From the NCBI RefSeq assembly GCF_033708015.1, contig NZ_CP137920.1, positions 744,001 through 808,000 on the forward strand: a DNA stretch of 64,000 nt. The letters are read 5' to 3'. This DNA is from Proteus vulgaris. Its GTDB lineage: Bacteria; Pseudomonadota; Gammaproteobacteria; Enterobacterales; Enterobacteriaceae. Shown here in pieces: positions 60,575 to 64,000 of the stretch. A program made the translations under genes and the position numbers. The notes beneath the pieces were generated by a model. That model was not told where the DNA came from and ran no database searches. It worked only from the letters and a program-made list of their open reading frames with translations. Position 1 is the stretch's first letter. Each line of letters starts with the position of its first letter.

Positions 60575-60615
60575 AAAAAAGCACCTTTTACAAGATGTAA
60601 TCAGGTGCTTTTTTT
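60575..60615 (+). terminator. dnaX-ybaB-recR terminator
   Basis: The arms AAAAAAGCACCT and AGGTGCTTTTTT surround a loop of about 16 bases, with further T following. Confidence 0.9.
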
Positions 60616-60800
60616 CATCTGAAATCATGAAAATGGCCTCAATTTTAATTTAAAACATCGGGTTTTAAATCTTAAAGCTTATTGTTTTTCAGAAATATCT
60701 TTATCTTCACTTTATTATTTTTTCTTTCTGATGAATTTTGCGTCTTTATGTTACATTAATAATTATCATGAAAAATAATAACTGAATGATGGAGCATCTT

Positions 60801-61469
60801 ATGATCCCTGACGTAGCCTTAGTTGATAATAGTGAACAAAGAACCCCTCTGATCTTAGTGCTAGATAGCTCTGGTAGTATGTATGGGCAGCCTATTCAAC
60901 AATTAAATGAAGGTCTTAAGCTACTTGAACAAGAATTAAAAAATGATGTTATTGCAGCGAAACGTGTGCGTATTTTAGTCATTGAATATGGTGGATATGA
61001 TCAATGTACTGTTCATGGCGATTGGAAAGATGCGATGGATTTTACGGCACCTGTTTTGGAGGCAAATGGCACAACCCCGATGGGGCAAGCCATTACGCTA
61101 GCACTTGAAGAAATTGAAGCTGAAAAACAGCGCTTTAAACAAGCAGGTGTGGCTTATACTCGTCCTTGGTTATTTTTAATGTCTGATGGTGTTCCGACAG
61201 ACCAATGGGAACACGCCGCGCAGCTTTGTCGTCAAGCAGAAGAAAATCAAAAAACAGCGGTATTTCCTATAATGGTTGATGGTGCATCAGCAGAGGTCAT
61301 GGGAAGCTTTAGCCGTAATGGTGTTAATGGTGTGAAAATGCTTAAAGGACTGCAATTTAAAGAATTGTTCTTGTGGCTAAGCGCCAGTATGCAGGTGGTT
61401 TCTCAATCAACACCAGGTGGTACGGCACAATTACCTTCAACTGATTCTTGGGCGAGTGTACCTGTTTGA
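60801..61469 (+). CDS. von Willebrand A domain protein (TerY-like), first gene of a three-gene set
   Basis: vWA protein of 222 residues with a complete metal-ion-dependent adhesion site: DSSGS at 22-26, Thr91/Thr92 in NGTTPMGQA, and Asp129 in LMSDGVPTD. The layout (short, single vWA domain, no signal peptide or membrane helix) resembles TerY proteins, cytoplasmic partners of PP2C phosphatases and kinases in Ter-linked stress systems. Three in-frame ATGs exist; the one at 60801 (MIPDVALVDN) has GGAG six bases upstream and is preferred over 60786. Its stop overlaps the next start (TGATG). Substrate and trigger are unknown. Confidence 0.85.
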   Translation: MIPDVALVDNSEQRTPLILVLDSSGSMYGQPIQQLNEGLKLLEQELKNDVIAAKRVRILVIEYGGYDQCTVHGDWKDAMDFTAPVLEANGTTPMGQAITLALEEIEAEKQRFKQAGVAYTRPWLFLMSDGVPTDQWEHAAQLCRQAEENQKTAVFPIMVDGASAEVMGSFSRNGVNGVKMLKGLQFKELFLWLSASMQVVSQSTPGGTAQLPSTDSWASVPV

Positions 61470-62224
61470 TGAATGATTGGTTAGCTTATGGGGCATCTGT
61501 GACAGGTATTGCCCATCAAGAGCGTCAAATTCCCTGTCAGGATGCTTATTTTATTCGTCGTAAAGGTGAGTATCTTATCGCCGCTGTTTGTGACGGTGCA
61601 GGCTCTTCTCGTTATAGCGAACAAGGTGCTCAGCTTGTTGCTCGGTTATTTACGCTACGCATTACAGAGTGGCCAAACATTGATTTGTTAACCGAAAAAC
61701 AGATAACGCAAGGGGCTAAACAAGTTATTGAAGATATTCGCCTCCAGCTGGCGGAATATGCAGAAATAAAGCAGTGTGCGCTTAATGAATATGCATCAAC
61801 ACTAGTGGCATGTTGGGTTGGTGATGATAGTGGCTATTTATTCCATTTAGGTGATGGTATTGCTGTGGTGGAATACAGTGATGGTACACGTTATGTATCA
61901 CAGCCTGAAAATGGGGAATATGCAAATCAAACATGGTTTGTGACATCAGAAAATTGGGAATCGCATCTACGCGTTATTCCCCTCAATAAACCGGTAAAAC
62001 AGGTTATTTTGATGTCAGATGGTGTACAGCCTTTTGCCATGAATAAAACGTGTGATGCTTTGTATGAACCCTTTATTACTCCCGTGCTCCGTTATTTAAA
62101 AACAGTATCAGAAGAGAGCGGAAGTGAGGCATTAGCAGGGACTTTAGCTGATCCTCGAACACATTCAATTACAGGCGATGATAAAACCTTAATTATTTGT
62201 ATCAGGGATGAAGCGTTGTGGTAA
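61469..62224 (+). CDS. PP2C-family serine/threonine phosphatase
   Basis: Metal-dependent phosphatase of 251 residues. The PP2C metal ligands are in place: Asp25 (CQDAY), Asp42-Gly43 (VCDGAGS), Asp129 region (HLGDG), Asp184 (LMSDGV) and the C-terminal TGDDKTLI. There is no membrane segment. The real start is the ATG at 61469, overlapping the vWA stop; the open frame from 61448 adds seven residues. It probably reverses the action of the downstream kinase on shared targets such as the vWA protein (inference from gene order and family). It overlaps the kinase gene by 7 bases. Confidence 0.88.
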   Translation: MNDWLAYGASVTGIAHQERQIPCQDAYFIRRKGEYLIAAVCDGAGSSRYSEQGAQLVARLFTLRITEWPNIDLLTEKQITQGAKQVIEDIRLQLAEYAEIKQCALNEYASTLVACWVGDDSGYLFHLGDGIAVVEYSDGTRYVSQPENGEYANQTWFVTSENWESHLRVIPLNKPVKQVILMSDGVQPFAMNKTCDALYEPFITPVLRYLKTVSEESGSEALAGTLADPRTHSITGDDKTLIICIRDEALW

Positions 62225-63693
62225 AAGCGAGAAAAAAAGGGATAGTTCAACTTGTATCTAGTCAATTACAAGATGAAAACGGTAAGATTTATCAAATAGG
62301 TGATTTGATAAAAAGCGGAGGGGCTGGCAGTGTTAGCCATATTAATAACGCACCTCTTCAAGTATCAAAAGTTTATCATGACAAAATTGATAAAGCCTAT
62401 TATTTGAAAAAAATCACGGCAATGCAGAAGTTAGAACCTGCATTAAAGCCCGTTTCTGTTAATGGCACGCCTATTATCCAGCTCGCATGGCCTCAAGCAC
62501 GTTTATACAATAGTCAAAAGCAATTTGTTGGCTTTGTGATGCCTGAACTTGATGTCAAAAATACGATTGAGTTGGAATACATTCTTCAAGAACGCCAAGC
62601 CAAAGCTCATGGCTTACCCTCGGGAATGGGGGCGAAAGTGAGTCTCGCCTATAATCTTTGCTCATTGATTGATGCTTTACATCAGCAAGGGCACCGTATT
62701 ATTGATATGAAACCATTGAATTTACGGTTTTATAAATCAAGCTTGTATATGTCTCTTCTCGATTGTGATGGTTTTAGTATTCAAGGTGAAAATACACGTT
62801 ATCCTGCGGGGCAATTTACCGTTGAATATTTAGCGCCTGAATTTCAAGCTAAACAAACTATTCCAGAAGCAGAAGAAGAGTGGCAAGATCGATTTGCCTT
62901 AGCCGTTATCATTTTTCAGTTGCTTAATTTTGGGATCCACCCCTTTAGTGGTCGCCCTAAAAATGACACTGTACCTACAGATATTCCAAGGCGTATTGCT
63001 GGGCGTTTTTATGGTTATGGGATAAAAGCACATAATTTAATTACACCCAGTGTGGCGAGTGGACATAAACAATTACCTGATAAATTAAGAACTCTTTTTG
63101 ATAAAGCGTTTTCAGGCACACCTTCGCAAAGACCCAGTGCAAAGAGATGGGCGACAGCACTTTATGAATATGCACAACCCGAAAAGCAACAGCTAGTCGT
63201 TTGTCAAAAAGATAAAAATCATCAGCATTTTGCAGGTAAAGCTTGCGCAGCATGTGCAAGAGAGGCGAAGTTACAGCAAGTTGCTATTACGCAAAAACAA
63301 AACCAAACGCAACGTGAACAAATTCGTCAAAAAAGAGTACAAAATGCGAATATCCGACAAGCGCCAATTCAACCTACGCCAGCGAAACCGATTCAACCGC
63401 CTGCGATATTTATAGCGGTTAAAAATGCAATAAACCAAGTCCCTAAAGTCATATTTCATACCGCTATTGCTATGTTGATCCCTGTGATATTTGGAGTTTT
63501 GATGATGAATTTTATTCCACAGGATATAAGTAGTGAGTTAGCTTCTAATTGGGTCTCTGATTTAATCAAAGCGGATTATTTTAAACAATTTATAATGGCG
63601 ATAATGAGTGTGATGTTTTTAATGGTTTCCGTAATCGTTTTATTGATCCTGTTTGTTTTCCCTTCATCGAGTATATTGAAAAAAAGGCCATAG
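62218..63693 (+). CDS. Atypical Ser/Thr protein kinase with Cys/His cluster and C-terminal membrane helices
   Basis: Protein of 491 residues. The kinase domain spans about 25-320: Gly-rich loop SGGAGSV (33-39), ATP-site Lys51 in VSKVYH, catalytic loop HRIIDMKPLNL (159-169) with Asp163, Lys165 and Asn168, metal-binding LLDCDGF (180-186), and LAPEF (205-209) in place of APE. A C...H...C-x2-C cluster (Cys329, His335/337, Cys343, Cys346) resembles a zinc ribbon. A Gln/Arg-rich linker and Pro-rich stretch follow, then two membrane helices at about 411-433 and 457-481. The start is a GTG at 62218. It is translationally coupled to the phosphatase. Confidence 0.85.
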   Translation: MVKARKKGIVQLVSSQLQDENGKIYQIGDLIKSGGAGSVSHINNAPLQVSKVYHDKIDKAYYLKKITAMQKLEPALKPVSVNGTPIIQLAWPQARLYNSQKQFVGFVMPELDVKNTIELEYILQERQAKAHGLPSGMGAKVSLAYNLCSLIDALHQQGHRIIDMKPLNLRFYKSSLYMSLLDCDGFSIQGENTRYPAGQFTVEYLAPEFQAKQTIPEAEEEWQDRFALAVIIFQLLNFGIHPFSGRPKNDTVPTDIPRRIAGRFYGYGIKAHNLITPSVASGHKQLPDKLRTLFDKAFSGTPSQRPSAKRWATALYEYAQPEKQQLVVCQKDKNHQHFAGKACAACAREAKLQQVAITQKQNQTQREQIRQKRVQNANIRQAPIQPTPAKPIQPPAIFIAVKNAINQVPKVIFHTAIAMLIPVIFGVLMMNFIPQDISSELASNWVSDLIKADYFKQFIMAIMSVMFLMVSVIVLLILFVFPSSSILKKRP

Positions 63694-63708: not shown

Positions 63709-64000
63709 ATGAAAAAAAGAGTAAAACTTATACTGATTATTATTGGCATTATAACGTTACTGTTCCCTTTTTGGTTACCTGCTTTTTTAGTTTCAACTTT
63801 TAGTTTGATTGATAGTTTTAATAGCAAAATTCTCCCCTCATCTGTTCGCTTTGATGAGCGTAATTTCTTACTGGGAGTGTGGGTAGGCTCTCTGATTATG
63901 ACGATTGTGATGTTGTTGCAATCGTGGCGATCTAAAAATATTTATTATTTATGTGGTGGTGGGCTCGTATTTTTAATGGCACTCAGCGTGTCATTTTCGA
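63709..64000 (+). CDS. Membrane protein of unknown function (partial, runs off the window)
   Basis: An open frame begins with MKKRVKLILIIIGIITLLFP at an ATG at 63709 and stays open to the last base (97 codons). AGGGAAAAT lies just upstream. Three hydrophobic segments are visible (about 5-33, 54-70 and 79-96), the first perhaps a signal anchor. It follows the kinase by 15 bases on the same strand and is probably in the same transcript. No family is recognised. Confidence 0.7.
   Translation, partial: MKKRVKLILIIIGIITLLFPFWLPAFLVSTFSLIDSFNSKILPSSVRFDERNFLLGVWVGSLIMTIVMLLQSWRSKNIYYLCGGGLVFLMALSVSFS

Follow-up and report, generated by a model that had tools for sequence, protein, structure and literature searches.

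A vWA, PP2C phosphatase and Ser/Thr kinase triad beside the gene of a predicted double-TonB_C membrane protein in Proteus vulgaris: a candidate transmembrane phosphorylation switch

Membrane-spanning Ser/Thr kinases with PP2C partners are exemplified by the PASTA-type receptor kinases of the PrkC/PrpC, PknB/PstP and IreK/IreP pairs. One study names kinases of this type and lists YegI of E. coli among the kinases with activation-loop autophosphorylation (PMC12189002). YegI is described as a membrane-bound autophosphorylating Ser/Thr kinase that is dephosphorylated by PphC, and no condition that promotes expression of YegI or PphC is reported to have been defined (PMC13232886). A related set of three components is the TerY-P triad, made of a vWA protein, a PP2C phosphatase and a kinase fused to a C-terminal zinc ribbon (PMC11090510). 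In this study, we have explored a 64,000-nucleotide stretch of Proteus vulgaris DNA (contig NZ_CP137920.1, positions 744,001 to 808,000; hereafter the window), whose 3' end cuts inside a four-gene unit encoding, all on the + strand, a vWA protein, a PP2C phosphatase, a kinase and a predicted membrane protein with two TonB_C domains (gene 4 and protein 4). We favour, with moderate confidence, the reading that these four proteins form one transmembrane phosphorylation switch, in which a membrane Ser/Thr kinase, a PP2C phosphatase and a vWA protein act with a periplasmic TPR-TonB_C partner.

The unit is tightly packed. The vWA (YegL/TerY-like) gene (60786..61469, 227 aa) overlaps by 1 base the PP2C-family phosphatase gene (61469..62224, 251 aa, start ATG), which overlaps by 7 bases the Ser/Thr kinase gene (62218..63693, 491 aa, start GTG), and a gap of 15 bases separates the latter from gene 4, which encodes 835 aa. 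Only the first 97 codons of gene 4 (63709..64000) fall within the window; the gene ends at G000:C1:810216 (L002:3910-6417). The vWA, PP2C and kinase genes are real, intact and co-oriented, and form three quarters of the unit. The original prediction had described them as overlapping genes with complete motifs, and in this the open reading frames (ORFs), the two overlaps, Pfam and residue conservation all agree with it. The vWA start that it gave, 60801, is an in-frame internal ATG of an ORF that opens at 60786, and either may be the start. It had also expected a further gene beyond base 64000; gene 4 does lie mostly there, but its start at 63709, inside the window, had been missed.

Each of the three proteins carries the residues expected of its family. 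The vWA protein matches Pfam VWA at 30.6 bits (cut-off 23.8) and the phosphatase matches PP2C_2 at 154.5 bits (cut-off 24); the only Pfam match of the kinase is Pkinase, at 31.5 bits, 0.2 under the cut-off of 31.7. A scan with the kinase alignment gave 145 related stretches, the best 80 of which were kept as relatives' loci, and residue conservation was counted in the fetched relatives (n=78 for vWA and PP2C, n=80 for the kinase). The metal ion-dependent adhesion site (MIDAS) of the vWA protein is complete, with D27, S29 and S31 found in 76/78 relatives each and T97 and D134 in 78/78. All PP2C metal ligands (D25, D42-G43, D184-G185, D237-D238) are present in 78/78 each, and K51, D163, K165, N168 and D184 of the kinase in 80/80 each. 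Beyond its catalytic domain, the kinase has a putative Cys-His-Cys-Cys zinc ribbon (C329, H335, C343, C346; 63202..63255, + strand), predicted to bind zinc, each residue of which is conserved in 80/80 relatives. It is followed by two hydrophobic segments, which hydropathy places at residues 408-426 and 454-472 (63439..63633, + strand) and the structure model (mean pLDDT, the predicted local distance difference test score, 84.0) at helices 410-432 and 454-489; an inner-membrane anchor is predicted for the kinase. A Foldseek search with this model recovered the kinase fold only (PknB, 3.0e-11), and PDB sequences searched with a kinase profile gave no match.

By domain content and identity, the three genes have the make-up of a TerY-P triad and are homologous to E. 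coli YegL-PphC(YegK)-YegI. The original prediction had likened them to the TerY-phosphatase-kinase triad, and all components of the TerY-P triad are there: a vWA protein with MIDAS, a PP2C phosphatase with its metal ligands and a kinase with the ribbon residues of the putative C-terminal ribbon. Differences from described TerY-P triads are the membrane segments of the kinase, the TonB_C partner, a vWA protein without the TerY_C domain and the lack of any recognised terD-family, restriction or nuclease partner. With the E. coli proteins, identity is 42% for the vWA protein, 29% for PP2C and 28% for the kinase (over the kinase domain). Gene order (vWA, PP2C, kinase) is also shared, with overlapping vWA and PP2C genes and the kinase gene next on that strand, and hydropathy finds two hydrophobic segments in YegI as in the window kinase. 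The E. coli locus differs, however, in having yegJ between pphC and yegI (in K-12), in a long C-terminal part of YegI that lies outside the alignment, and in that no TonB_C gene is annotated beside these genes. From the homology to YegI and PphC, the window kinase and phosphatase should form an autophosphorylation/dephosphorylation pair. The likeness to the PASTA-type kinases is formal: a transmembrane Ser/Thr kinase, a PP2C phosphatase and an outward-facing module, which is in one chain with the kinase in the fused forms described below. Here, no PASTA domain was found (nor did Pfam list one in the five relatives' kinases scanned), TPR/TonB_C takes its place, usually on a separate protein, a vWA protein is added and the kinase domain is only distantly related.

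Protein 4 is what sets this unit apart. Along its length come hydrophobic segments (within residues 1-100), helical repeats, a first TonB_C domain (about 391-446), a second helical block and a C-terminal TonB_C domain. Pfam TonB_C covers two stretches (62.1 bits), TIGR01352 matches at 72 bits, and the first TonB_C domain matches solved TonB C-termini (E 2.8e-8). The structure model (pLDDT 83.4; the modelled database protein differs at 1 of 835 residues) was also searched whole with Foldseek, without any match at E 0.001 or better; its top rows had TM-scores of 0.11-0.14 and were repeat proteins by name. A TonB energy transducer has a single N-terminal membrane helix with a conserved His, and ExbB and ExbD as partners. 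Protein 4 shares with the TonB family the C-terminal domain, present twice, but its helical repeats are large, its membrane helices number three or four, the window protein has no His up to residue 115, it is tied to a kinase, and no exbB or exbD gene was recognised among the neighbours read at the locus. Some database records name it "energy transducer TonB". Six of its 16 database matches carry an organism name, and all six are Proteus.

The tie between this protein and the triad is seen among the 80 relatives' loci, in which ORFs were called from stop to stop. The vWA, PP2C and kinase genes stand on one strand in 78/80 (L097 and L098 lack vWA and PP2C), which argues that the arrangement is not due to chance, and at least one hydrophobic segment follows the kinase domain in 78/80, the exceptions being L106 and L113, both Myxococcota. 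By the TonB_C profile of this study, the domain is encoded by a separate next gene in 18 loci, lies on the kinase reading frame in 2 and is found in neither position in 60. The separate gene occurs in Proteus (9), Providencia, Serratia, Enterobacillus, Klebsiella (2), Entomohabitans (two tandem copies), an Enterobacteriaceae metagenome-assembled genome (MAG), Azonexus and Stenotrophomonas. In Cupriavidus, TonB_C is on the kinase reading frame at a Pfam score of 46.5 bits (cut-off 24.6). In Azonexus L103, the kinase runs on into the C-terminal half of gene 4, matching the gene-4 profile at 5e-55 (one of the 19 rows of this profile is L101, the sister of L103), with a Pfam TonB_C score of 22.4 bits, just under the cut-off of 24.6. 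The homologous region of Azonexus L101 is a separate adjacent gene, 47% identical over 404 aa to the kinase tail of L103, and the two kinases are sisters in the kinase tree (99/89). All TonB_C rows, fused or separate, belong to one 100/100 clade of 48 rows together with Janthinobacterium and Lysobacter; the nearest rows to the window kinase are those of P. alimentorum, P. cibi, P. columbae, P. terrae and P. penneri, and long branches make it unsure where E. coli YegI, the Ter-linked kinase of the window genome and the kinases of genomes G045 and G057 belong. A single hydrophobic segment was found in the tail of 8/9 long-tailed kinases examined, the other being L103, with two. In three Lysobacter loci (L083, L088, L096), an adjacent reading frame resembles gene 4 in its membrane and helical parts and is without TonB_C. 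Loci L107-L137 except L113 and L127, mostly from Alphaproteobacteria MAGs, have the triad, a kinase with one to three hydrophobic segments and no TonB_C by our profile; several have unrelated-looking flanks by eye, with a 462-aa protein or a peptidase-like 371-aa protein.

Closer to home, we searched 60 related genomes. All four genes were found in 18/20 genomes of the genus, the window genome included and counting as present G018, in which the vWA gene is split between two frames, and G010, in which a DDE transposase gene (PF01609) interrupts gene 4 while the three triad genes stay open (L055:6526-10083). None of the four was found in G002 or G016 of the same genus. In G016, recR is directly followed by cstA with a gap of 414 bases; the last 265 bases of this spacer match, at 76% over 267 columns, the spacer that precedes cstA in the window genome, and a stretch like the hairpin on the recR side of the unit follows recR (85% over 48 bases). 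This plain junction bears out the claim of an insertion after recR, and the unit is there present or absent as one piece. In G002, the gene next after recR is another one, on the opposite strand; recR and cstA flanks were read in four other unit-bearing genomes of the genus. Within the genus, identity is 92-100% for vWA (one genome split), 84-96% for PP2C, 77-90% for the kinase and 60-89% for gene 4, and in two relatives (P0028 and P0024) the kinase is 92 and 96% identical in its catalytic domain, against 57 and 66% in its membrane part. Across the 60 genomes, vWA, PP2C and kinase matches lie side by side in 20, so that the linkage in relatives on which the original prediction had staked its reading of the genes as one system is there; the exceptions are a distant version of the triad in G057 and, in G045 (L053:6829-8576), a vWA-kinase pair without a PP2C match and with no TonB_C gene noticed alongside. 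G021, of another genus, has the triad and two gene-4 copies, full-length homologues in tandem after one triad, flanked by genes that look by eye like treR and ridA (L051:6793-11887); this gene block is the same as Entomohabitans L073. G030, G040 and G041 have a weak gene-4 match in the TonB_C part only (E 6.7e-5 to 4.7e-4). In G047 (L052:6547-8220, - strand), a 558-aa protein comes after the triad; it has a hydrophobic stretch near its N-terminus, gives no Pfam match and is perhaps another envelope partner.

At the scale of the family, a survey of 392 genomes (threshold E 1e-20) found gene 4 in 10, and the same 10 have a close kinase (E 2.4e-188 or better), directly upstream of gene 4 and co-oriented in 10/10. 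In six more genomes, the sole match is a distant YegI-like kinase (E 3.4e-25 to 7.9e-33), and 376 have neither. The ten, which include the window genome, comprise four of its genus and 6 genera in all, and the loci behind profiles A3 and A4 had been selected by their kinase. We take this co-occurrence as strong evidence, although not fully independent. In an even sample of the class, gene 4 was found in 1/274 genomes, the window's own.

Based on these results, we infer the input signal, phosphorylation targets and output of the switch as follows. The helical-repeat and TonB_C part of protein 4 would be periplasmic and bind an envelope component, for example peptidoglycan or an outer-membrane protein; a change in the envelope would be relayed through the membrane helices of protein 4 and of the kinase; the cytosolic kinase would autophosphorylate and also phosphorylate the vWA protein or another partner; PP2C would take the phosphate off; and the vWA protein would carry the output through its metal-dependent site. 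The cytosolic core is conserved and the membrane and envelope side varies, in keeping with a sensor role for protein 4, and TonB_C fused to a kinase with a single tail segment gives a receptor-kinase layout. More tentatively, the unit might be a Gram-negative counterpart of PASTA-kinase signalling. Its receptor would then be a periplasmic TPR/double-TonB_C protein, acting in trans in enterics and forming one chain with the kinase in some Betaproteobacteria; it would sense peptidoglycan or outer-membrane proteins, and the switch would control the cell through the MIDAS vWA protein. The triad is already known. A literature search covering few subscription papers gave no report that ties it to a double-TonB_C membrane protein, whether separate or fused, an absence that is weak evidence that the tie is new. 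YegI and PphC are described as active enzymes for which no expression condition is defined; through the clade whose triad is tied to one envelope protein, at times within one reading frame, the input side can be tested. If this reading is true, TonB C-terminal domains gain a signalling role beside a Ser/Thr kinase.

Several points weigh against a sensor switch of this kind. The topology of protein 4 is not settled: hydropathy predicts three segments, with the C-terminus outside, and the model four helices. With three segments and the basic loop after the second one inside, the rest of the protein would be periplasmic, and with four it would not; L103 has two predicted segments before its TonB_C region. 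No PDB structure matches protein 4 as a whole, and E. coli PphC and YegI are only 28-29% identical to the window proteins. The 60/80 loci without TonB_C by our profile include Alphaproteobacteria loci with the triad and a kinase with hydrophobic segments, which indicates that the partner belongs to one clade. Janthinobacterium accounts for 18 of these 60, with kinase tails of 409-437 residues that are unproven as TonB_C (Pfam 18.5 vs 24.6 bits for P0065, none listed for L100, hhalign probability 7%). Finally, with profiles chosen by the kinase and only 6 genera, the family-wide co-occurrence does not amount to ten independent cases.

The most serious rival, which we hold to be unlikely, reverses the direction of the signal: protein 4 would be the output, phosphorylated near the membrane by a kinase that is set by a cytosolic signal through the ribbon or the vWA protein, with an altered envelope function as the result, for example outer-membrane protein coupling. 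Gene 4 is the last of the unit, cytosolic loops are predicted for its product, TonB_C serves as an effector domain in TonB and TolA, and the ribbon ligands kept in 80/80 kinases would fit a cytosolic metal or ligand input. However, in Cupriavidus and Azonexus L103 the kinase itself carries the TonB_C part, as in a receptor kinase, and divergence is faster in the membrane and predicted periplasmic parts than in the kinase domain, which is often so in sensors. We consider it highly improbable that protein 4 is an ordinary TonB energy transducer and a chance neighbour of the triad: the product name in some records and the match of its first domain to solved TonB C-termini speak for this, but the missing N-terminal His, the three or four helices, the second TonB_C domain and the lack of recognised exbB and exbD neighbours do not fit, and neither do the 10/10 co-occurrence with the kinase and the kinase-TonB_C fusions.

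The remaining alternatives come from the TerY-P make-up of the triad, for which the original prediction had proposed a Ter-linked or defence output. This was not supported: the next gene encodes a predicted membrane protein with two TonB_C domains, the site is recR-cstA, and the ter cluster is separate. The prediction was correct that no ter gene is in the window (0.744-0.808 Mb), as one of the six terD-family matches in the genome is at 1.96 Mb and the other five are at 3.44-3.45 Mb, and no ter gene was recognised within 16 kb downstream, terD being the only ter family searched by profile. Reading downstream, as it had advised, did reveal a membrane-protein gene (gene 4), but no ter or nuclease gene was recognised before the cstA-like and cobW-like genes that follow. 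Membership of the unit in the Ter system was rejected because the ter cluster of the same genome, near 3.44 Mb, has its own triad, with further TerY proteins, one of them bearing the TerY_C metal-binding domain, a PP2C of 498 aa and a kinase of 502 aa. A detached Ter (tellurite or metal) branch is likewise very improbable in our opinion. It would share the triad make-up, and the window vWA protein is 35% identical to a TerY of that cluster; it is nevertheless nearer to YegL than to the TerY_C-bearing protein (24%) and has no TerY_C match in Pfam, and kinase identity between the two triads is 26% over 237 aligned columns, the Ter-linked kinase having no hydrophobic segment. We therefore regard the window triad as a second one, of the YegL-PphC-YegI kind. 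A stand-alone TerY-P-type anti-phage or stress module, with protein 4 as envelope effector, also seems improbable, if less so. In L054, the triad adjoins an SF1-type helicase (named by eye), but PADLOC gave no strong match for the three triad proteins (best PglW, 22.2 bits), and no McrBC-like, nuclease or helicase gene, as expected of a CoCoNuT or restriction-linked TerY-P locus, was recognised beside the unit, whose neighbours are recR, gene 4 and the cstA-like and cobW-like genes. As for a mobile element, no tRNA was found in the 6/6 loci scanned, kinase coverage of at least 80% was seen in 0/7 plasmid records and 0/1 phage record, and the presence of the unit in 18/20 genomes of the genus also stands against an anti-phage module. 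The switch with a periplasmic TPR-TonB_C partner remains the reading that we favour.

The Ter-linked locus shows one further feature. Right after its TerY-P kinase gene, and convergent with it, lies a gene for a 124-aa likely lipoprotein with a TonB_C match of 44.3 bits (L138:6719-7090, - strand; G000:C1 about 3455219-3455590), possibly by chance or possibly on the same TonB_C theme.

The unit lies between recR and cstA, and its borders carry terminator-like hairpins. The upstream one, 3' of recR (60575..60614, + strand), folds at -17.3 kcal/mol against a shuffle mean of -4.76, with 0/200 shuffles as good; it is unlisted by a simple terminator scan, whose loop limit is 8. The second one, 3' of gene 4, folds at -15.0 (2/200 shuffles as good) and is listed by that scan, which found 7 terminators vs 4.4 expected and from which this hairpin alone was used; a promoter scan found 18 vs 18.8 expected. 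Beyond gene 4 come a cstA-like transporter gene, named by eye, and then a gene for a cobW-like GTPase. Further along (L002:15383-17157) are two adjacent ORFs, of 219 and 334 aa, neither of which has a Pfam match above the cut-off; the second has a long Thr-Glu repeat tract.

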